From the NCBI GenBank assembly GCA_002011815.1, contig MTOV01000024.1, forward strand, positions 1-42,432: a stretch of DNA of 42,432 nt, given 5' to 3'. The position numbers and the translations under genes are program-made. This document shows positions 2,206-19,055 of this stretch, in pieces; within the stretch, counting starts at the first letter, position 1, and the number at the start of each line of letters is the position of its first letter. Source of the stretch: Nitrospirae bacterium JdFR-86 (GTDB lineage: Bacteria; Nitrospirota; Thermodesulfovibrionia; Thermodesulfovibrionales; JdFR-86). Below the pieces are notes generated by a model. It was not told where the DNA came from and searched no databases. It saw only the letters and a program-made list of their open reading frames with translations.

Positions 2206-2394
2206 ATGGCTAGAACACTTGTAATGGGAGCAGTCCTTGGTCTTGTCGGTGGGATAATATTTAGTGTCCTTTACTTCGGCGCAGGACAGATAACAACACC
2301 GATGGCTTATATACACGATGTGTCAGGCGCGGCACTTGGAATACTGATAGCATGGATTGTAGCCCTCTACAGAAGAGGTGCGGATAAAAAATGA
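2206..2394 (+). CDS. Small two-helix membrane protein of unknown function
   Basis: This 62-residue protein has two hydrophobic helices (about 4-26 and 38-56), a short loop and a basic RRGADKK tail, so the C terminus is probably cytoplasmic. An AAAGGGGG site sits before the ATG. Its stop overlaps the ATG of the thioredoxin-like selenoprotein gene (ATGA), so the two are translationally coupled. I do not recognise a family. The position suggests a membrane partner of the redox/iron block that follows. Confidence 0.7.
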   Translation: MARTLVMGAVLGLVGGIIFSVLYFGAGQITTPMAYIHDVSGAALGILIAWIVALYRRGADKK

Positions 2395-2879
2395 CCCGTT
2401 TTGGGGTAAAGACACTTTTTATTGCACTCGTTTTTGTAGTAAGTTTTTCATGCTCAGACGGGTTTCCTCCGGAATTTCCTGCTCCTGATTTTACTCTCAA
2501 AAGCCCCCTGACAGGCAATGAGGTGACCCTTTCCTCACTCAGTGGCAAACCTGTTGTTATCTACTGGTTTGCAAGTTGGTGACTCCGCTGCACTGAAGAG
2601 ATTGCGCTGGTCAGGCGCGCAGAAGAAAAATACAAAGACACCGGTCTTACAGTCCTCTGGATAGGACATCAAGACCGTGTGGAAAAACTCACCAAATATG
2701 CCAAAGATAACGGAATACCCGATTACTTATTCGATGCTGACGACAGCATGTCAAAAAAATTCGGCATAACATACGGAGGCGGTATTGTATTCATCAACAG
2801 AGACGCAGTAGTAAAATCACGAATACCAAAAGGATTTTCTTCCTCTCGCCTTGAAGCCGAACTGAAAAAAATACTTTAA
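2391..2879 (+). CDS. Thioredoxin/TlpA-like selenoprotein (UxxC), exported
   Basis: The frame runs 162 residues if TGA at 2580-2582 is read as selenocysteine (residue 64). The sequence before it (PAPDFTLKSP, VVIYWFASW) and after it (LRC-TEEIALVRRAEEKY) is that of a TlpA/ResA-like thioredoxin, and the TGA falls exactly where the first Cys of W-C-x-x-C belongs, giving W-U-L-R-C with Cys67 as partner. Both halves are in the same frame. The N terminus has a hydrophobic signal ending near Cys21 (VVSFSC), so the protein is exported and perhaps a lipoprotein. The usual cis-Pro position is Gly (YGGGIVFIN). It would be a thiol:disulfide reductase or oxidase. Neighbours offer two roles: reductant for cytochrome c maturation (ResB/CcsA nearby) or partner of the FTR1/DUF2318 protein 3 bases downstream. 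SelA/SelB/tRNA-Sec are not in this window. Automatic annotation would split it in two. Confidence 0.85.
2588..2622 (+). promoter_or_regulatory. Candidate bacterial SECIS hairpin
   Basis: The outer stem CTGC/GCAG (2588-2591 with 2619-2622) and inner stem GCGCT/AGGCGC (2604-2608 with 2613-2618, one bulged G) present a GGTC apical loop (2609-2612). There is a 12-base bulge on the 5' side. The GG of the loop is 26 bases after the TGA. Bacterial SECIS elements lie inside the coding region just after UGA, with a G-rich apical loop roughly 16-37 bases downstream, so distance and loop both fit. Loop sequence and folding were judged by eye. Confidence 0.65.
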
Positions 2880-2882
2880 AAA

Positions 2883-4259
2883 ATGTCACAGCCGTTTCTC
2901 ATAGCCTTTAGAGAGGCATTACAGTGTTCTATAATCTTAGTCCTTATGCTGGCATACCTTAAGACAAAGGATGACAGCGAATACCACAAAAGTTTTATCT
3001 CCGGAATTGTCATCGCCTTCATCATAGGATTCATTGCAGGCTATGTTCCGCTTTTTAGCAGACTCTGGGGCAATAAAACATGGACATTCTGGAGATATAC
3101 CACTGAATTAATAATCTTCTATTCGAGCATACTGTTTTTAATCTCTAAGTCAAACCCGTCAAAGCCCGTTGTTAAAGCAGGGCTTATGCTTCTGGGTTTT
3201 TCCGTGTTTTTCTTTGAAGCAAGGGCTTCAGGATTCTTAATTTACGACTACGGCATGATGAAAGAAAACATCACAGGTATAACCATTGCAGGACTGACCG
3301 GTATCATCTCAGGCTTTATTCCCGTGCTTCTCCTGAACCGGTTTCTGGAGAAAATCCCCATTCACAAAGCACTGACACTTCCAAGTCTTCTGATGCTAAC
3401 AGGTGCATTGAAATTTGCATTTGGCGGAGCAGGTGAACTTGAAGAAGGAAATATACTGATAGCACTGCAAAAAGGCCTTCTCGGATTTTTTAAGGACACC
3501 ACAGAGTATATGCAGGGTGTCCTTTTGCTTTCAGAGCATCCGTTTATAGAAGTCCCCTTTGCTGCTCTTGCCCGTTTTCTCTCAGGAGACCGGATGGCTA
3601 CCTCGGCAATGGTGATATTTACAATGCTTCCTCCTCTGCTCATACTCAGCCACCTGTTTGCAAAGCCTGAACCAATAGTCAGCGACATTCAAGTCAGAGC
3701 AGAAAGAAGACTCAATATCGCATTCTTCAGAAAAGAACTTATTTATAAAACAACACCAGTATTGCTCTCATTTGTAATCCTCTTAGTCTTAATCCATGCA
3801 GTGAACATGGCAGTAAATCCACTTTATGGTCCTGAACCCATACCTGTAAGAGAGGCCGAAGGGCTTGGTGTCCTGAAGATACCGCTTTCTGACCAGGTCG
3901 GAGACCTTACAGACGGCAAACTCAGAAAATATGTTTATTACTATGGAGACAAGCAAATTATATTTCTTGCCATACTCAAACCTGACGGCTCTCTTGGAGT
4001 AGCACTTGACCAGTGCGAGATATGTAAACCTGCAGAATGGAATAAAGCTGCACAGGGATACGCCCAGAGGGGAGACCACCTTGTCTGCAAATACTGCATG
4101 ACACCCATACCCATTCCCACAATCAATAACCCCGGGGGCTGTAATCCAATACCCCTTCCATTTAAACTCGAAGACAATTACATAATAATCTCTCTTGACG
4201 ACCTCATAAGAACATACAAAAACGCCGAGGCTTTGGATAAAAAAGGGACACACCTATGA
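2883..4259 (+). CDS. FTR1-like polytopic membrane protein with C-terminal DUF2318 domain
   Basis: The protein has 458 residues. The N-terminal ~270 residues hold about seven membrane helices and begin with FREALQ, resembling the R-E-x-x-E motif of FTR1 iron permeases, although the last Glu is Gln here. A further helix (about 295-315) precedes an extracytoplasmic DUF2318 domain with Cys378, Cys381, Cys402, Cys405 and Cys420 in a CxxC, CKYC, PGGC arrangement plus the PIPIPTINNPGG segment; these could bind metal or heme-like cofactors. In Campylobacter an FTR1 permease, P19, a DUF2318 protein, FtsX-type permeases and TlpA-like thioredoxins form an iron-uptake cluster, so the thioredoxin 3 bases upstream fits. 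There is no clear Shine-Dalgarno, so translation is probably coupled. Transport of iron is inference. Confidence 0.78.
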   Translation: MSQPFLIAFREALQCSIILVLMLAYLKTKDDSEYHKSFISGIVIAFIIGFIAGYVPLFSRLWGNKTWTFWRYTTELIIFYSSILFLISKSNPSKPVVKAGLMLLGFSVFFFEARASGFLIYDYGMMKENITGITIAGLTGIISGFIPVLLLNRFLEKIPIHKALTLPSLLMLTGALKFAFGGAGELEEGNILIALQKGLLGFFKDTTEYMQGVLLLSEHPFIEVPFAALARFLSGDRMATSAMVIFTMLPPLLILSHLFAKPEPIVSDIQVRAERRLNIAFFRKELIYKTTPVLLSFVILLVLIHAVNMAVNPLYGPEPIPVREAEGLGVLKIPLSDQVGDLTDGKLRKYVYYYGDKQIIFLAILKPDGSLGVALDQCEICKPAEWNKAAQGYAQRGDHLVCKYCMTPIPIPTINNPGGCNPIPLPFKLEDNYIIISLDDLIRTYKNAEALDKKGTHL

Positions 4260-5515
4260 TGCAGAAAAAAATCATAAGACTCGTATCCTCATGGCAATTT
4301 ACACTAATCCTGCTGCTTTTGCTTTGCACCTCATACGTATTCTTAACATTTACTGAAAGACCCTATGAAAAATGGATAAATTTCATTTTCCATACACCTG
4401 CAGGACTAATTCTTTATATCGGGCTCATTGTTAATCTCATATCTTTAAACATCAGAATCGCCTGCTCAAGACTCAAACGCAAAACAGTCACCCTTGAAAG
4501 CATCAAAAACATGGATACTTATATAGAACTCCCTGCAAACGCTCCTCACCTGGGGGAAACAATCACTGCATGGGCAAAGAAAAAAGGCTTCCACACAGAC
4601 ACAGACAAAAACTATGTAATCGCACTAAAGGGGAAACTCTCGTTTCTTCCCGGAACCTTATTCAGAACAGGCTTGATTGTTCTCATGACTGCACTTCTTT
4701 TCAGCGCATATCTCAGGAAGACTGAAGAAGCAGTGTTTCACGAAGGGGACAAACTCTTTGGAAAAAACATCTATCTGACAAGTATTAAATCCAATCTTCC
4801 TGAAGAGTTTTTGCAGGTAGGCGAAAAAAGCATATTCAAACTGAACGGTGTTTCCGCAACTCTTTCAACCTCGACAAAGACATACAGTATTACAAGCGGA
4901 TTTCCCACAAAAATTAAAGGCAAGTATTATCGCATCACCAATCTCGGGTTTTCCCAGCCGTTTTCAGTTGGAAAATCACCGACTGAAAATGCAGACATAG
5001 ACATACTTCCACCAGGCAAAACCGATACACTCACACTGCCATCCGGGGATCCACTTACAATTACGCTTCAACCGGAAAAGACTATAAAAAAAGGACTCAT
5101 TACAGGAAAACTCTACAATCTCAAGACTCCCCTTTACAGCATAAGCTTTAAGAATAAAAACGGTAATAACATAGAAGGCTTGAGTATAAGACCTTTGGAA
5201 AGCATTGCATTCGGAGAGGTCGATATTTCACTTGGCAAGAACTCTCTGTTCGTAAAGATACAATCCGTATATGACCCTGCACTTGTGTTCATATATACAG
5301 GCATTCTGCTGACCTTTTCAGGTCTAATTTTCATGTTCAGCCGGTTTTTCTGGTATGAAAAACAGATGTGTGCCGTCTTTACGGACAAAACAGTGCTTAT
5401 CGGTTATAGAAAAGAGTTTTACAAGAAGTGGGGCATACAGAAATTTCACAGGTGGAAAGACGTCTTTGTGTCAGGCACTGAATCTTCCGTAAACAAAGCC
5501 CAGACCACCGATTGA
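4256..5515 (+). CDS. ResB-like cytochrome c biogenesis protein
   Basis: The 419-residue protein has helices near 12-33, 48-68, 134-152 and 343-365, and a large extracytoplasmic beta-rich region between the last two. The SSWQFTLILLLLL start and overall topology match the ResB/CcsB family, which with CcsA moves heme across the membrane and attaches it to apocytochromes c. Conserved heme histidines could not be confirmed by eye. The start overlaps the DUF2318 gene (ATGA), placing it in the same transcript. Its last 45 bases overlap the 3' end of a convergent second ResB-like gene. It could serve a specialised maturation or metal-reduction role with the DUF2318 protein. Confidence 0.72.
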   Translation: MMQKKIIRLVSSWQFTLILLLLLCTSYVFLTFTERPYEKWINFIFHTPAGLILYIGLIVNLISLNIRIACSRLKRKTVTLESIKNMDTYIELPANAPHLGETITAWAKKKGFHTDTDKNYVIALKGKLSFLPGTLFRTGLIVLMTALLFSAYLRKTEEAVFHEGDKLFGKNIYLTSIKSNLPEEFLQVGEKSIFKLNGVSATLSTSTKTYSITSGFPTKIKGKYYRITNLGFSQPFSVGKSPTENADIDILPPGKTDTLTLPSGDPLTITLQPEKTIKKGLITGKLYNLKTPLYSISFKNKNGNNIEGLSIRPLESIAFGEVDISLGKNSLFVKIQSVYDPALVFIYTGILLTFSGLIFMFSRFFWYEKQMCAVFTDKTVLIGYRKEFYKKWGIQKFHRWKDVFVSGTESSVNKAQTTD

Positions 5516-6187
5516 CAGGAACACACCGCCTATAAGTGCCCAAAGCGCACCTGGGTCGCGGCATACCCTTATAAGTGCTGAAGGTTCAGGCTCTATGCTT
5601 ACTGATTTAAAGTAAAGCCCGAACTGTCCGAAATACAAAGGATGCACAGGACGAAGAACCTCTTCTTTGACTTTTTCGCCGTTTTCAAACCACCATAATT
5701 TTGCTTCCCAGTCAGTATAATATCCTTGCTTATCAGTCTGTACTTTCACGTCTTCAAGATAAAGCTCTATTTCTCCGGCGACGACCTTCTTTTCGCCTTC
5801 TTTAATACGCATATCTGTCTTAAACCCTATGGAGGCTGTAAGCAGATGCCCGAGCATTATAAAGAGCACTCCGAGGTGCATTACTTGTGGCGAAAGCTTC
5901 AGTATGAGATTTCGGCTGTTAAGCCCCTTAATTGTGCCATCTATAGTACAGAATATAGTGCTGACTGCAAGCAGGGCAAGCATCAGTATCATAGCGTATA
6001 TCCACCATGTAAGCTTAAGATTTCCGGAGTCTGAAAGCCACCTAAAAAGCGGTGTATCGTCTATGCCTGAGAAAAACGCAAGATTGTTTGGAAGAACTAC
6101 CGAACCTATGAATGCAAACACAATGAATACGAAAAACAGCCAGAATGCAGTCTTAAGCGAAAGGAAAAATCGTGCAATTGCCTTCAT
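5471..6187 (-). CDS. ResB-like protein (short form), System II cytochrome c maturation
   Basis: This 238-residue protein has a SLKTAFWLFFVFIVFAFIGSVVLP opening helix typical of ResB/CcsB, helices near 60-80, 100-120 and 210-230, and a soluble segment between them (RIKEGEKKVVAGEIELYLEDVKV). It is much shorter than full ResB (400-plus residues). It follows the CcsA-like gene by 25 bases on the same strand, so the two form a heme-handling pair. An AGG-rich site lies 12 bases upstream of the ATG, rather far. The 3' end overlaps the convergent ResB-like gene by 45 bp. Confidence 0.78.
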   Translation of the reverse strand: MKAIARFFLSLKTAFWLFFVFIVFAFIGSVVLPNNLAFFSGIDDTPLFRWLSDSGNLKLTWWIYAMILMLALLAVSTIFCTIDGTIKGLNSRNLILKLSPQVMHLGVLFIMLGHLLTASIGFKTDMRIKEGEKKVVAGEIELYLEDVKVQTDKQGYYTDWEAKLWWFENGEKVKEEVLRPVHPLYFGQFGLYFKSVSIEPEPSALIRVCRDPGALWALIGGVFLSIGGLGFVYGRFSA

Positions 6188-6212: not shown

Positions 6213-6977
6213 CTAAAATTGAGTCGGTGGGCTCGGTATCACAGTGCCCACACCAAAGTAGGCAAAAAGAGCCACTGCAAACCCGAGTATTCCAAGTACT
6301 GCTGCTGGTCTGCCCCTTAATCCTCTTATAAATCTTGCATGCAGATAAAGCCCGTAGTAAAACCATACGAGCGTAGTCCAAAGCTCCTTTGACGTCCAAA
6401 GCCAGTATGTGCCATAGGCTACAAAAAACCATATACTGCCTGCTACCAGCGAGATAGAAAACACTATCCAGCCATGAATTATCCCCTTGTATTGAAGCAA
6501 CTCGTATTCGCCCTTGCCGTTTAACAGATAATACACCCCGATGCACGCTGATATTCCAAAAAACGCATAACCTATAAAGTAAAAGAATATGTGAAGATAA
6601 AACCACGGTGACTTTAAAAAAGGCGAAATTGTATTAATGGGCTTAAAGGCAAGAGAAACAAACATAAAGATTGAAAGCAAGGGCAATGCTACAATACCTA
6701 AATTCTTCAATCCCTGACGGCTGTAAAAATACCAGTAGACAAAAGCCATTACAAGCGCCATGAACGAAATATTATCGTGCTTTTCTGTAAGTGGAATCCT
6801 GCCTATCTCTACCCCTCTCAGAACAATACTCAGTATATGGAAAAAAATTCCGGAAAGAAAAAGCCAATAGCCTTTTTTCCCTTCCATAAGCCCCATGATG
6901 TATAATGCCGTGGGGATGAGAATAAGAAAAATAGTAAGTAAAGACCGGCCTTCTTCGCTAAGTTCAAAAAGTGCCAT
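6213..6977 (-). CDS. CcsA/CcmC-family cytochrome c assembly protein
   Basis: A 254-residue, almost entirely membrane-embedded protein with about eight helices. The WWD-like heme-handling loop is recognisable as YGTYWLWTSKELWTTLVW, and His residues in LYLHARF and WFYLHIFFYF may be heme ligands. CcsA proteins hold and export heme and ligate it to CxxCH motifs in the periplasm together with ResB; this window encodes several such cytochromes at 17328-19494. The ATG at 6977 is preferred over GTG 6986 because AGGTG sits 6 bases before it. The WWD loop lacks the usual Asp (Thr here). Confidence 0.85.
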   Translation of the reverse strand: MALFELSEEGRSLLTIFLILIPTALYIMGLMEGKKGYWLFLSGIFFHILSIVLRGVEIGRIPLTEKHDNISFMALVMAFVYWYFYSRQGLKNLGIVALPLLSIFMFVSLAFKPINTISPFLKSPWFYLHIFFYFIGYAFFGISACIGVYYLLNGKGEYELLQYKGIIHGWIVFSISLVAGSIWFFVAYGTYWLWTSKELWTTLVWFYYGLYLHARFIRGLRGRPAAVLGILGFAVALFAYFGVGTVIPSPPTQF

Positions 6978-7076
6978 AACTGTCACCTATTCCACTAAAA
7001 ACATGTTATTGCCACTGTATTTTTGCTGCCTCAATCTTAGCATTCATTTTACCGTTAATGTCAAGAAATGCTTATG

Positions 7077-8008: not shown

Positions 8009-10111
8009 ATGGCTAAAGGTAAAAACAAAGTCCTGAGGATAATACTTCTAACCGCAGTATCTTTTGCTTTGTCTGCTGGCATTGTTTTCTCCGGCATTCT
8101 CAACACATTTGAACTCAAGGCATACGACCTGCTGTCCAGAAATCTGAACCCTGCTGAACCGCCAGATGATATAGTAATCATAAAGGTTGACCAGCAAAGC
8201 ATAGACGCGCTGAACGCAGAGGGCATCAGATGGCCCTGGCCCAGACAGATGTATGCACCTCTTGTGGACTACTTGTCAGAAGCAGACGCCGTATTTATAG
8301 ACATACTCTTTACCGAACCCTCATCATACGGTGAAGAGGATGACTTAGTCCTGTCCAAGGCGATTAAAAAAGCATCGAATGTATATCTGCCGGTCTTTCT
8401 CACAAACAGGGAAAAAGACCTAAGCGAAAAAGACATGGAATTTCTGGAAAAAATCTCTGTCAAAGGGAAAGTCCCTGCTGCCATGGCATTTAATTCAGTT
8501 GTCACCCCTATAGACGCTTTGAAATTCTCTGTCAGGGGAGCAGGAAATGTAACTATCCCGCCTGACGAGGACGGAGTATACAGAAGAGTGCCCTTAATAT
8601 TTAACTCAGGGGAATATACCATTCCTCATTTCATCCTCAGCTATTTAATAAACGAGGGGAGAATAACCATCAAAGACGGCTCTATTTATATAGACGGCAG
8701 CAAAATCCCTCTCAGGGAACAGGCACTCATGCTCAGATACTTCAGAAAAACCTCACCTTTTCCAGCAATATCTGCTGTTGAAGTCCTCAGGTCATATCTT
8801 GAAAACAGCTTGTCAGGGAATCCCTCTGTTAAAAAAGAATACTTCAGGGGGAAAAAAGTGTTCATCGGACTGACTGCCGCAGGGCTCTATGACCTGAAGC
8901 CAACAGCCGTATCATCCATATCCACAGGAGTAGTAATCCATGCCACCACACTCGAAAACATCATCAACAAGACCTTTATCAAGCCGATAAATAACATCTA
9001 CACTGTCGTATTCATGTTTTTAATCTGTTTCCTCATAAATTTTTCTGTCATAAGATATCATTCCGTATATGCAAATCTTTCTGTATTTCTTATATTGTTT
9101 CTTATTGCCGTATCAATCCCTGCCTTATTATTTAAAAATGCCTTATACATGGGCATAGTCTCTCCTTCTGTTTCACTTGTAGTGGGTTTTATTATTTCAG
9201 CTGCCTACAGTTATGCAACCGAAGGGAAAGAAAGGCGCTTTATCAAAAAGACTTTTTCCCGGTATATGGACAAAAAGATTGTCGAGCACATACTGAAAAA
9301 CCCCGTGCTTATCAAACCTGGAGGACAGAGAAAACACATCACTGTATTTTTCGCTGATATTGCAGGGTTTACGACCATTGCCGAGAAAGTTCCTGCTGAG
9401 GAAACGGCAAAGATTCTTCACACCATACTTAACTCGTTCACAGAGGTAATAATCAGAAACAGCGGTGTCATAGACAAATACATAGGCGACTGTATAATGG
9501 CATTCTGGGGCGCACCTGTTGCTGATGAAAAAGACGAAATAAATGCCTGCCGCTGTGCACTTCAGTGCATGGAGGCGCTTGAAGAAATCAACAGGGCATT
9601 CAGGGCAGAGGGGCTGTCTGAAATAGCCGTCAGAATAGGCATACACTCAGGAGACGCCATTGTGGGTAACCTCGGCAGCGACAGGCTGTTCGACTATACT
9701 GCTGTCGGTGACACTGTTAACCTTGCCTCAAGACTTGAATCCGCAAACAAGCTCTTCAATACACAGATAATCATCAGCGAAGAGACTTTGAAAAAAACAG
9801 ATGACATGTTTTTTACAAGACAGCTTGGCATGCTCGAGGTAAAAGGCAAAAACATTCCTGTAAGGATCTTTGAACTTATTGCTGAAAAGGACAAAATCAG
9901 GCATAATAAAAAAGAACTCGTGGCGATGTTCAATCAAGGAATGGCTTTTTTCAATGAACAGAATTTTGAAAAAGCACTAGGCATCTTCAATAGCATACTC
10001 GAAAAATTTCCTGACGACAGACCTGCAAAGTTCTACAAAGACAAATGTGAACAGCTGATTGCAACCCTTCAGCAGACAGACTGGAATATTATTAAGATGA
10101 GGGAAAAATGA
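8009..10111 (+). CDS. CHASE2-domain class III adenylate/guanylate cyclase
   Basis: The 700-residue membrane sensor has an N-terminal helix (about 9-30), an extracytoplasmic CHASE2 domain (about 35-320; VIIKVDQQSID, RWPWPR), three helices (about 330-400), and a cytoplasmic class III catalytic domain (about 440-620). Metal-binding Asp is in FFADIAGF (near 450) and DKYIGD (near 493); YTAVGDTVNLASRLES carries the Asn and Arg transition-state residues. A short TPR-like tail (FNQGMAFFNEQNFEKALGIFNSIL) ends the protein. It makes cAMP (or cGMP) in response to an unknown signal. The next gene starts 4 bases inside its stop (ATGA), linking it to the SH3-like and M48 genes. Confidence 0.93.
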   Translation: MAKGKNKVLRIILLTAVSFALSAGIVFSGILNTFELKAYDLLSRNLNPAEPPDDIVIIKVDQQSIDALNAEGIRWPWPRQMYAPLVDYLSEADAVFIDILFTEPSSYGEEDDLVLSKAIKKASNVYLPVFLTNREKDLSEKDMEFLEKISVKGKVPAAMAFNSVVTPIDALKFSVRGAGNVTIPPDEDGVYRRVPLIFNSGEYTIPHFILSYLINEGRITIKDGSIYIDGSKIPLREQALMLRYFRKTSPFPAISAVEVLRSYLENSLSGNPSVKKEYFRGKKVFIGLTAAGLYDLKPTAVSSISTGVVIHATTLENIINKTFIKPINNIYTVVFMFLICFLINFSVIRYHSVYANLSVFLILFLIAVSIPALLFKNALYMGIVSPSVSLVVGFIISAAYSYATEGKERRFIKKTFSRYMDKKIVEHILKNPVLIKPGGQRKHITVFFADIAGFTTIAEKVPAEETAKILHTILNSFTEVIIRNSGVIDKYIGDCIMAFWGAPVADEKDEINACRCALQCMEALEEINRAFRAEGLSEIAVRIGIHSGDAIVGNLGSDRLFDYTAVGDTVNLASRLESANKLFNTQIIISEETLKKTDDMFFTRQLGMLEVKGKNIPVRIFELIAEKDKIRHNKKELVAMFNQGMAFFNEQNFEKALGIFNSILEKFPDDRPAKFYKDKCEQLIATLQQTDWNIIKMREK

Positions 10112-10578
10112 ACATTTTAATATCTATCGTCAGCCTGCTTATATTTGTTCTTGCATCCGTCCCTGTGCATGCAAGCACACTAAGAGTCGTTACAAAAGAA
10201 AACGCCATAAGGGAGTACTGTAAATTCTTTTCTCCGGTAAAGCTAAAAGTGCGATATAACGACAGGCTGGATGCAATCTCAAAAGAAGGCGACTGGTTCA
10301 GGGTCAGGTTTAAAGGCATAAAAGGGTGTATTCACAAAACTGCTGTTGAAGAAAAGACATTTACTTTCTCAGGAATATTAGGCTCGAGGACACAGGCGGC
10401 ATCCAGCGATGAAGTGGCTCTGGCAGGCAAAGGATTCAATCCAGAAGTCGAAAACTCTTTTAAGAGCAAATACCCTGAACTTAACTTCCAGACAATCGAC
10501 ATGATAGAAAAATACAAAATACCAGAAGACAAACTTTTAAGGTTCATCAAAAGCGGAGGACTGAATCTACCGCAATGA
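10108..10578 (+). CDS. Exported SH3-like domain protein
   Basis: A 156-residue protein with a signal peptide (about 1-22, ending VHA). The segment 25-80 (VRYNDRLDAISKEGDWFRVRFKGIKGCIHKTAV) has the beta pattern of bacterial SH3 domains, which often bind cell-wall peptides. The remainder (AGKGFNPEVENSFKSKYPELNF) is a segment often seen next to M48 peptidase genes; its function is unknown. It overlaps the cyclase and peptidase genes by 4 bases on each side, so the three are co-translated. Confidence 0.75.
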   Translation: MNILISIVSLLIFVLASVPVHASTLRVVTKENAIREYCKFFSPVKLKVRYNDRLDAISKEGDWFRVRFKGIKGCIHKTAVEEKTFTFSGILGSRTQAASSDEVALAGKGFNPEVENSFKSKYPELNFQTIDMIEKYKIPEDKLLRFIKSGGLNLPQ

Positions 10579-11927: not shown

Positions 11928-12360
11928 TATCCAGAATCATCCTTTTTGCCTTTTCGACTATTTCTCTATCTCCCTTAAAGGCAATCTTATTTATGGCTTC
12001 GTCTATAGGGAACCAGGCTGACTCATCCACCTCCCAGTCATGATTGTCCGTGCTTCCGCTTACATACTGCATGAGATAGAAATAAACGGTCTTTTTGCAT
12101 TTTACATTTTCCTCTTTAATAAAATACCAGTAGGAGATCTGGCCTATCTTTCCAAGTATATTGCCTTTAAGACCTGTTTCTTCTTCTACTTCTCTTAATG
12201 CTGTTTCTTCAGGGGTTTCGCCTTTGTTGACTATGCCCTTTGGAAGACACCACACAGTGCCGCCTTTGACTGCAATCAATGCCACTTCTATACGACCCTT
12301 ATGTTTTCTGAATATAACCCCGCCTGATGAGACCTGAGTCTTAAGCGACGCAGGCTTCAT
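11920..12360 (-). CDS. Nudix hydrolase
   Basis: A 146-residue protein with a complete Nudix box: Gly42, Glu48, Arg56-Glu57, Glu60-Glu61 and Gly63 in the GX5EX7REUXEEXGU spacing. It hydrolyses a nucleoside diphosphate linked to another moiety. [11 protein letters not shown] upstream resembles Ap4A/dNTP-type Nudix enzymes, but the substrate is not determined. It overlaps rseP by 4 bases and rfaE2 by 8, so it sits in the middle of the dxr-rseP-nudix-rfaE2 operon. Confidence 0.9.
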
Positions 12361-15320: not shown

Positions 15321-16526
15321 TTATCCACTTTTTCTTATGGCTTCGTAAGGGGATATCCCTGATGCCCTGACAATAGGATAAGAAGTCGCAACCAGTCCGG
15401 AGGCGAGTGCAAACGCCAGCACTGCCAGCATAAGAAGCAAAACATAAGCTAAAGATGGAAAAAGAAAAGGCACATTAAAAAACACTCTGAGCATGTTCTG
15501 AAAACTCAAAATAAAAACAATACCGCAGACTATTCCTGCGATACCTCCCGCACTTGAAAGTAGAAAAACCTCATTAATGAAAATACCTAAAATGTCTTTT
15601 CTTTTTGCACCCATTGCCCTTAGAAGCCCTATCTCCTTTGTTCTTTCATCCACAGAAAGAGAATACAGAACCCCTATCATGATAAGACTGACAATCCACT
15701 GTATGACACCGGCAGCAACTGTTGATTTCACCGGCACAGCCAGGTTATGTCTTGCAGTTCTCAGGACATCGCTTGCAAGGACGACTTTAAGTTCCGGCAG
15801 GGCGTATTCTATTCTTAAAGCCACCTCTTCGTGTCTGACATCCTGGTCAAACCTGAGGAGTACTGCAGATATTTCATCAGGTTTTATACGGAGGGTCTTC
15901 AAGGCGTTTTCTTCTGACCCTGCTATCATCTGTCTCACACCATTCATGGGAATGAACACAGAGCTGTCTATAAATTTCATTCCTGTGGGCTCGAGTTTTC
16001 CTGCTATAAGGAACTCTTTTCCGTAAAACTTTATTCTTCCGCCTGGCTCTGCAAGTATATTCGTGCCTATTATTACTTCGTTGTCAGAGAGCTTTTTTTT
16101 CAGAGTTTCTCTCAGCCACGGGGAAATCGTAAAGTCTTTTTCAGGGTCAAACCCTATGAGCATTGTATCCGAAACTGTACAGCAGGAAAGCGGTGCTGAA
16201 ATGACAAAAAGCTGCGAAGCAGTAGCGGCAACGCCTTTTATATTTCTTAGCTTTTCTTCCACATCAGCCTTCATGTAAAAGGCAGAAGGTCCTCCTGAAA
16301 GGAGAATGCCTTTTGTATCTTCCTGCCATCCCTGAGGCACTACCAGCGCATCGGCTCCAAGACGCGCCCTGCCCTTCTCAATACTGTTGTTCACAGAGAG
16401 ATATATAATCGTAAGGGCAAACAGCATTCCTGACAGGGCTGCTATACCGAGCAATATTGCTACAGTCCTTACAGGCTTCTGCTTAAGGTTCTTTACTGCA
16501 ATTTTAAAGGCACTCAAACTTGCAAT
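15321..16526 (-). CDS. FtsX/MacB-type ABC transporter permease
   Basis: The 401-residue protein has one N-terminal helix (about 20-42), a periplasmic MacB-like domain (about 45-265), and three C-terminal helices with the cytoplasmic ERTKEIGLLRAMGAKRKDI segment typical of FtsX/MacB/LolC permeases. I choose an ATT start at 16526 because AGGAG (16539-16535) sits 8 bases upstream; the first ordinary alternative, TTG 16517, is 17 bases away. No ATPase gene is adjacent. DsrE and DUF134 genes lie immediately upstream. Such permeases occur in the Campylobacter-type DUF2318/FTR1 iron cluster and PLSCCTVSDTMLIGFDP may mark this subgroup, but the link to 2883-4259 is only inference. Confidence 0.8.
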   Translation of the reverse strand: MASLSAFKIAVKNLKQKPVRTVAILLGIAALSGMLFALTIIYLSVNNSIEKGRARLGADALVVPQGWQEDTKGILLSGGPSAFYMKADVEEKLRNIKGVAATASQLFVISAPLSCCTVSDTMLIGFDPEKDFTISPWLRETLKKKLSDNEVIIGTNILAEPGGRIKFYGKEFLIAGKLEPTGMKFIDSSVFIPMNGVRQMIAGSEENALKTLRIKPDEISAVLLRFDQDVRHEEVALRIEYALPELKVVLASDVLRTARHNLAVPVKSTVAAGVIQWIVSLIMIGVLYSLSVDERTKEIGLLRAMGAKRKDILGIFINEVFLLSSAGGIAGIVCGIVFILSFQNMLRVFFNVPFLFPSLAYVLLLMLAVLAFALASGLVATSYPIVRASGISPYEAIRKSG

Positions 16527-17929: not shown

Positions 17930-18286
17930 TCACTCCTCCTCGACACTACAGCAGACATCTTCCTTTATCTCCTTTCCTTCTTTCAGTTCTTTATAAACGG
18001 CGTAAGCCTTGAGCGCCCACTGCTCGCCAGGACACCCGCCTTCCGTCATCGCAACATTGAGAAACTCAAGGAGCTCCTCTTCTGTGGCTCCTTTTTCATA
18101 TGCCATCTTTGTATATGCCCTTATGCAGGGTTCGCACTTTTCCACGACAACGACAGTTAATGCAGCAAGAACCTTATATTTTGCAGGCACTGCAGCATCC
18201 CTGAATGTCTCTTCACGCATCCTCACAAGACCACCTGTCACTTTAGGGGTCAAACGTCTTAACTCTTTATAAAGGTCTTCTGCCAT
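17930..18286 (-). CDS. AhpD-like carboxymuconolactone decarboxylase-family protein
   Basis: A 118-residue all-helical protein with CEPC at 51-54. In AhpD-like members this CxxC pair followed by His gives peroxidase or disulfide-reductase activity; here the His position (58) is Tyr (CEPCIRAY), so the proton relay is altered. A second Cys region (VCCSVEEE) ends the protein. Its start (ATG 18286, behind AAAGGGG) is 22 bases after the membrane cytochrome gene, so it is probably a redox partner in the same operon. Confidence 0.85.
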   Translation of the reverse strand: MAEDLYKELRRLTPKVTGGLVRMREETFRDAAVPAKYKVLAALTVVVVEKCEPCIRAYTKMAYEKGATEEELLEFLNVAMTEGGCPGEQWALKAYAVYKELKEGKEIKEDVCCSVEEE

Positions 18287-18308
18287 ACCACCCCTTTCTC
18301 TCCCGCTG

Positions 18309-19055
18309 TTAAAGCGTGTTAAGGTATGCAATTATGTCTTCTATCTCCTCGTCAGTCAAGTAATCGAAAGGAGGCATTTGATCGAACGGTTGTTTTAATT
18401 GCAGGACTATATTTTCAGGGGTCGCCGGTCTTTTACTCACAGGAAGAAGTGGATTTTTGAGAATGCCTTTATGTCCGGGGCCTATAATCGTATCGTTGCT
18501 GAACGGGTCATGGCAGGAGTAGCACTTGGAATCATAAAGTTCTTTTCCCCTGCGGATGCTCTCTTCGTCTGTCTTAACAGCAATCTTAAACTCCTCTTTC
18601 AAAACTTCCTTTTCGGTCTTTTTGCCCTGTCTGAATTTTATTTCCGTGCTGAATTTGGTAACGAGGAGATAATACCCGGCTGAAGTCCCTACCATGCCAA
18701 AGGTTATAATGGCTATCAAAAGCCCGAAGGTCTTTGCATAACTGTAAAACCCTCTGTAAATTCTGATAAAAGAAACTTTTAAGACGAACAGCACTACTAT
18801 TGTCAGTGCAAACAATGCATGAAATGTAGAGCGGGGTGAAAGCTCTGTCCTTGTATCCAAGATGAACTTAAGACAGAAATATGATACGAACAAAAACAAC
18901 AGGATGTAGAACCTTCCATTTATTCTGTGAAGCCTTTTGAGTCTGTCTACGTTATATCTCTTTTCACCCCTTCCGAAGACCTCAAACATCGTAAACATCG
19001 CAAACAGGGCAGACAGAATGATGATGAGCGACAGGAAGGACTTTACCAAAAACAT
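18309..19055 (-). CDS. Membrane-anchored monoheme cytochrome c
   Basis: The 248-residue protein begins with four membrane helices (about 5-25, 50-68, 78-98, 110-132) in a b561/DUF420-like arrangement with His43 (RLHRING) and His79 (FHALFAL), which may bind a b heme. A linker leads to a periplasmic cytochrome c domain with CYSCH at 178-182 and a likely Met ligand in QMPPFDYLTDEEIEDIIAYL. The protein could pass electrons from the quinone pool to soluble cytochromes. ATG 19055 is chosen because GGAGG is 7 bases upstream; an ATG at 19061 is too close to that site. Confidence 0.87.
   Translation of the reverse strand: MFLVKSFLSLIIILSALFAMFTMFEVFGRGEKRYNVDRLKRLHRINGRFYILLFLFVSYFCLKFILDTRTELSPRSTFHALFALTIVVLFVLKVSFIRIYRGFYSYAKTFGLLIAIITFGMVGTSAGYYLLVTKFSTEIKFRQGKKTEKEVLKEEFKIAVKTDEESIRRGKELYDSKCYSCHDPFSNDTIIGPGHKGILKNPLLPVSKRPATPENIVLQLKQPFDQMPPFDYLTDEEIEDIIAYLNTL

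Follow-up and report, generated by a model that had tools for sequence, protein, structure and literature searches.

Selenoproteins that carry a UxxC motif, both of the peroxiredoxin-like (Prx-like) kind and of the TlpA-like kind (cd02966), have been described since 2004-2005 (PMC13188914, PMC1088965). The first description of the TlpA-like UxxC selenoproteins came from the Sargasso Sea metagenome (PMC1088965). In a 2026 review, the accessible part of the selenoprotein table has PF00578 or cd02966 with UxxC present and a Nitrospirota subfamily absent (PMC13188914). In bacteria, the selenocysteine (Sec) codon is directly followed by a stem-loop, the SECIS, which has a small apical loop containing G (PMC1088965). 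A further feature of thioredoxins is the cis-proline, which is more conserved than the CxxC motif and may prevent metal binding (PMC2757866).

The locus described here lies in the window, i.e., the whole stretch of 42,432 nucleotides that was analysed (Nitrospirae bacterium JdFR-86, contig MTOV01000024.1). We regard positions 2391-2879 as very probably a genuine selenoprotein gene, on computational evidence from the codon, the hairpin, selection, the fold and the neighbourhood. The features of the gene are:

2391-2879, + strand: complete selenoprotein gene, 162 aa, Sec being residue 64, with an N-terminal hydrophobic helix and a ResA/TlpA-like thioredoxin domain (TGA = Sec translation, Pfam, AlphaFold2, Foldseek)
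2391-2453, + strand: N-terminal hydrophobic segment ending at Cys21 (sequence; helix 4-19 in the AlphaFold2 model)
2580-2582, + strand: TGA codon read as selenocysteine, codon 64, first position of UxxC
2589-2591, + strand: codon of the partner cysteine, Cys67 of UxxC (invariant column in alignments A1 and A3)
2603-2619, + strand: SECIS hairpin, stem 2603-2607 with 2615-2619, GGUC at 2609-2612, covarying G2609-C2612
2778-2780, + strand: codon of Gly130, at the cis-proline position of other thioredoxins (profile alignment to ResA and 3kcm, alignment to Cys homologs)

The recoded frame and its hairpin

The open reading frame begins with ATG at 2391 and its TAA ends at 2879. Its TGA replaces the first Cys of the thioredoxin WCxxC motif (W-U-L-R-C) and is followed by 98 further sense codons in the same frame. 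The sequence-only reading had placed the TGA at exactly this position, codon and frame, and translation bears out the length it gave for the open frame. These 98 codons stay open in 0.4% of base shuffles of the gene, and the other two frames of the same stretch contain 4-5 stops each; the open frame past the TGA is more than chance. With the TGA kept in every ortholog found, this agrees with the earlier argument that a chance nonsense mutation was unlikely. Gene callers had been said to split the gene into pieces of 63 aa and 66 aa; the same pieces come from a table-11 ORF lister, and the gene is an example of one that will come out of annotation pipelines as two.

When 396 genomes of the phylum were searched with a profile, 17 of them had ortholog-level matches (160-275 bits), and all 17 have exactly one in-frame TGA, at the position of codon 64 wherever this was read; in one genome (G377) there is a second, fragmentary piece, which starts 3' of the TGA codon. 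In the next class (below 90 bits), among the matches listed, an in-frame TGA occurs only in G245, and a TAA in G214. The G245 match (locus L154, 1678-1740, minus strand) is a separate TlpA-like frame, with its TGA in the context WUPFC and its cis-proline kept, and was left out of the selenoprotein family. In a search of 100 relatives, strong matches were found in 7 genomes (40-76% identity, one TGA each), and the next matches, at about 62 bits and below, had no TGA. A scan of GTDB contigs found orthologs in Nitrospirota metagenome-assembled genomes, Thermodesulfovibrionales included, and the TGA agrees in all 12 of the scanned loci that cover the codon. The TGA-bearing orthologs come from genera of several families and classes, and the W-U-x-R-C position is common to 19 of the 19 distinct sequences aligned. 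The comparison with homologs that had been proposed as a check thus gives TGA in every ortholog-level match and Cys at the Sec column in distant homologs. The presence of Sec in all ortholog-level matches of the genome searches, with no Cys version among them, suggests that selenium chemistry is required rather than optional. The viral contigs searched yielded no relative.

In comparison with the nearest relative, pN/pS 3' of the TGA is 0.128/0.588; purifying selection continues past the codon. The decayed downstream frame, which the sequence-only reading had named as evidence against itself, is not what was found.

The hairpin at 2603-2619 lies directly 3' of the codon and has the small apical loop with G; its GGTC starts 26 bases after the TGA, exactly as had been noted from the sequence. 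The SECIS loop of E. coli fdhF is likewise GGUC. Among the 19 distinct sequences, 93.9% of the hairpin cells are paired, compared with 72.8% when shuffled and 41-51% when slid, and there are 23 double-change cells, compared with 8.3 in shuffles; kinship among the 19 sequences inflates the shuffle tests, whereas the slid control retains that kinship. The third base of a Pro codon covaries with an Arg codon (G-C, U-A, C-G); the window has its own double change, from C25-G39 to G25-C39 (Pro to Ala, together with a synonymous Arg codon, CGG to CGC), and two other loci (L143 and L144) have U28-A36 in place of C-G. The loop is GGUC or CGUG, with one GGUG, so the outer loop bases covary while the GU between them is invariant. 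When the 48 nt that follow the TGA of the window copy are folded plainly, the SECIS is not the minimum-energy structure; it is so when the 30-nt stretch around it is folded (-8.1 kcal/mol). The proposed mechanism is that SelB would recognise this hairpin, which starts 20 nt past the UGA, and that because of this the ribosome would read codon 64 as selenocysteine.

Selenocysteine machinery and the tRNA

The host genome encodes selA (619 bits), selB (382 bits) and selD (335 bits), all over cut-off. Its selD carries a TGA of its own (G-U-A-A-K), and its formate dehydrogenase FdhA has a TGA in UHxP context, before HAP. Of the genes that had been proposed for a search, these three are therefore present, but tRNA-Sec is represented in the host assembly only by its 5' half: an intact UCA tRNA-Sec was not found there with the Rfam model, two patterns, DNA similarity or a covariance model from eight relatives, and none of the candidates of the clade-specific model, all 130 of which were scored, is an intact tRNA-Sec. 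The 5' half is 41 nt long (contig C5, 10019-10059, minus strand, L087), ends just past the anticodon loop and is identical to the tRNA-Sec of G005; the upstream flank is also similar. It is bracketed by 37-nt direct repeats at 9869-9905 and 10131-10167 (L087, G000:C5). The 3' end of tRNA-Sec has short matches, possibly remnants of attachment sites, in L088 (G000:C12) at 10082-10109 and 11974-11990, and in L089 (G001:C20) at 9230-9245.

Because a 5' half exists, a split or intron-bearing tRNA-Sec was considered; it was rejected, since no 3' half matched it and the flanks contained no Rfam intron. Some Nitrospirae are reported to carry selC within or beside selB (PMC13188914); no such gene was seen in the host selB locus (L009). 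In the related genomes, 8 of the 9 searched have a tRNA-Sec over cut-off, read as UCA by ARAGORN; G001 has the selenoprotein gene without an intact tRNA-Sec. Our preferred reading is that the tRNA-Sec missing from the host assembly would lie in a gap of that assembly at a mobile-element junction. It may also have been truly lost in the host species and, if lost in that species alone, only the host's copy of the selenoprotein would be untranslatable.

The lack of an intact UCA tRNA-Sec in the host assembly is what would favour a pseudogene, a sequencing error, or a lineage-wide nonsense codon without read-through. We consider these extremely improbable, given that 17 of 17 genomes, each assembled separately, have this codon (which refutes a sequencing error for TGC or TGT), the purifying selection downstream and the covariation of the hairpin.

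The best Rfam tRNA-Sec match in the host is a Sec-shaped tRNA-Cys with a GCA anticodon and U73 (L001, G000:C2, 1501-1595), and similar Sec-like tRNA-Cys sequences are present in relatives (L059-L062, L064, L069). Such selC* tRNA-Cys are a known class, Nitrospirae included, and some have UCA anticodons (PMC7609411). This raises the alternative of UGA suppression that would insert cysteine or tryptophan in place of Sec, or that would use the Sec-like tRNA-Cys. However, the GCA anticodon of L001 does not read UGA, and the hairpin together with selA, selB and selD makes up a Sec apparatus, rendering suppression very improbable. The earlier identification as a thioredoxin selenoprotein with UxxC is supported by the conservation of the TGA, purifying selection, hairpin covariation and these three genes.

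Fold, neighbours and proposed role

Translated across the TGA, the protein matches AhpC-TSA (PF00578) with 62 bits (cut-off 26) and Redoxin with 55 bits. The AlphaFold2 model has a pLDDT of 92.2 and a helix at 67-80 after the redox motif; its best PDB fold matches in Foldseek are ResA structures (TMt 0.81-0.90; for ResA 1su9, E 1.4e-12 and TMt 0.88). ResA is high in the profile comparison too, where it is the top-named PDB match. The model thus predicts that the redox pair opens the first core helix of a ResA-like thioredoxin fold; the sequence-only reading had called the fold TlpA-like. The UxxC motif, as opposed to TxxU, and the match of the fold to ResA led us to reject a peroxiredoxin function. 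The N-terminal segment is a probable lipoprotein signal or membrane anchor: there are canonical lipoboxes in the orthologs of L092 (LAVSC), L093 (LLASC) and L094 (LLPAC); the lipobox of the window (SFSC) is weaker, and L098 is without the Cys. The cis-proline before the third core strand is absent, its place being taken by Gly or Ala in every ortholog read; it is invariantly lost beside a Sec residue, and this is unusual for a plain dithiol reductase. The genes surrounding the selenoprotein gene are:

2206-2394, + strand: 62-aa membrane protein of no known family, overlapping the selenoprotein start (no Pfam family at E 0.001)
2883-4259, + strand: fusion of an FTR1-like permease and DUF2318 (FtrD-like) (PF10080 82.7 bits; weak N-terminal EfeU/Ftr1 matches)
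4256-5515, + strand: divergent ResB-like membrane protein (PF05140 below gathering score in the window and two orthologs, 15.9-21.7 bits; synteny)
5471-6187, - strand: ResB-like cytochrome c assembly protein (PF05140 34.5 bits)
6213-6986, - strand: CcsA/ResC-like cytochrome c assembly protein (PF01578 108.9 bits)

Of 12 loci from relatives, 10 encode the 62-aa membrane protein immediately before the selenoprotein (58-81% identity). In the close clade, the FTR1-DUF2318 fusion and the divergent ResB-like gene are downstream of the selenoprotein gene. ResB and CcsA are near the selenoprotein in the window, L090, L094, L098 and L099. Near the selenoprotein operon or the CcsA/ResB genes of several relatives there is also a membrane protein of ~130 aa with the motif NYxHDVATALL (L090, 5393-5788; equivalents in L091, L092 and L095-L099); in the window, a GDSL hydrolase gene, not this protein, lies upstream of the 62-aa gene. 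Further along the window, an FtsX-like permease gene (15321-16517, minus strand) and a gene for a small AhpD-like protein with CEPC (17930-18331, minus strand) were seen by eye near c-type cytochrome genes.

Most likely, the protein is a membrane-anchored selenol/thiol reductase that would serve the neighbouring haem/iron module. The product would leave the cytoplasm and stay attached to the outer face of the inner membrane, through either its N-terminal hydrophobic segment or lipid. There, the U64-x-x-C67 pair would cycle between selenenylsulfide and selenol/thiol, most likely as a strong periplasmic reductant, with electrons presumably flowing towards the membrane module. Two candidate substrates emerge from the neighbours, which do not favour either one.

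The first, to which we give not quite even chances, would be apocytochrome c: in the ResA/CcsX role beside the adjoining System II maturation genes, the protein would keep the CXXCH thiols reduced for ligation by ResB/CcsA. ResA is its closest named solved relative in sequence and fold; the distance to ResB and CcsA, downstream in the window, is 3-4.5 kb, and both are directly upstream of the selenoprotein in L098 and L099, even without FTR1-DUF2318 nearby (L099). However, the window has ResB/CcsA on the strand opposite to the selenoprotein, whose operon partner is FTR1-DUF2318; the cis-proline of ResA is missing, and the host genome has other TlpA-like proteins without a TGA.

The second substrate, which may apply as well or instead and which we hold plausible while still putting it below even, would be the FTR1-DUF2318 iron-uptake protein, whose DUF2318 cysteines or whose iron (Fe3+) would be reduced by analogy with Campylobacter and its FTR1-P19-DUF2318 operon, where the C. 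jejuni genes for FTR1 and DUF2318 are joined by those of periplasmic thioredoxins, which have been proposed as iron reducers (PMC6083913). In the window, FTR1-DUF2318 comes straight after the selenoprotein gene, and it is adjacent in most close-clade loci (adjacent or near in most orthologous loci overall), and the absence of the cis-proline could permit metal contact (PMC2757866). Against this, the window gene has neither P19 nor ABC genes beside it, and there is no FTR1 gene near the distant loci L097, L099 and L100 (L097 and L100 being short contigs).

A bolder proposal, which we think unlikely, is that in this Sec-only, cis-proline-less subfamily the UxxC would itself contact a metal (iron or haem iron) within the membrane module of FTR1-DUF2318 and ResB, instead of serving as a conventional thiol-disulfide reductase. 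With either of the two substrates, the most likely reading, a reductase serving the haem/iron module, would link selenium with the assembly of cytochrome c or the handling of iron in Nitrospirota.

Comparison with described selenoproteins and thioredoxins

The window protein stays below the cut-off of every NCBIfam model. ResA (NF002854) scores 41 bits against a curated cut-off of 170; NF041054, a ResA-like WAxxUGC selenoprotein, shows weak similarity (31 bits, cut-off 300), but that model has a UGC motif and 354 positions, whereas the window protein has UxxC. Our literature search found nothing specific on a Sec-type ResA or a Nitrospirota UxxC protein.

In the C. jejuni operon, FTR1 and DUF2318 are likewise encoded with a periplasmic thioredoxin; however, that operon includes P19 and ABC genes, and its thioredoxins are not presented as selenoproteins (PMC6083913). 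The window differs in having Sec, in the fusion of FTR1 with DUF2318 and in having a ResB-like gene instead. ResA (Bacillus) and the periplasmic reductases CcmG/TlpA are the best solved relatives by profile and fold, and here, too, System II genes are nearby; ResA has two Cys and the cis-proline, whereas the selenoprotein has Sec for the first Cys and Gly or Ala for the proline.

The Prx-like thiol:disulfide oxidoreductase selenoproteins (UxxC/UxxU) likewise belong to PF00578 and have UxxC and a SECIS just after the codon (PMC13188914, PMC1088965); the window protein belongs with them in its PF00578 match and its U-L-R-C. Compared by description with that class (representative WP_010940744.1), the Nitrospirota group differs in W-U-x-R-C, the absence of the cis-proline and its recurrent neighbourhood. 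With the TlpA-like (cd02966) "thiol-disulfide isomerase-like" selenoproteins, likened by description, it has the TlpA-like fold and UxxC in common. The impression of an undocumented protein therefore does not extend to the kind, described since 2004-2005, and holds for the subfamily: apparently a distinct, unnamed subfamily of the known UxxC Prx-like/TlpA-like selenoproteins, adding to them a coherent and apparently uncatalogued group.
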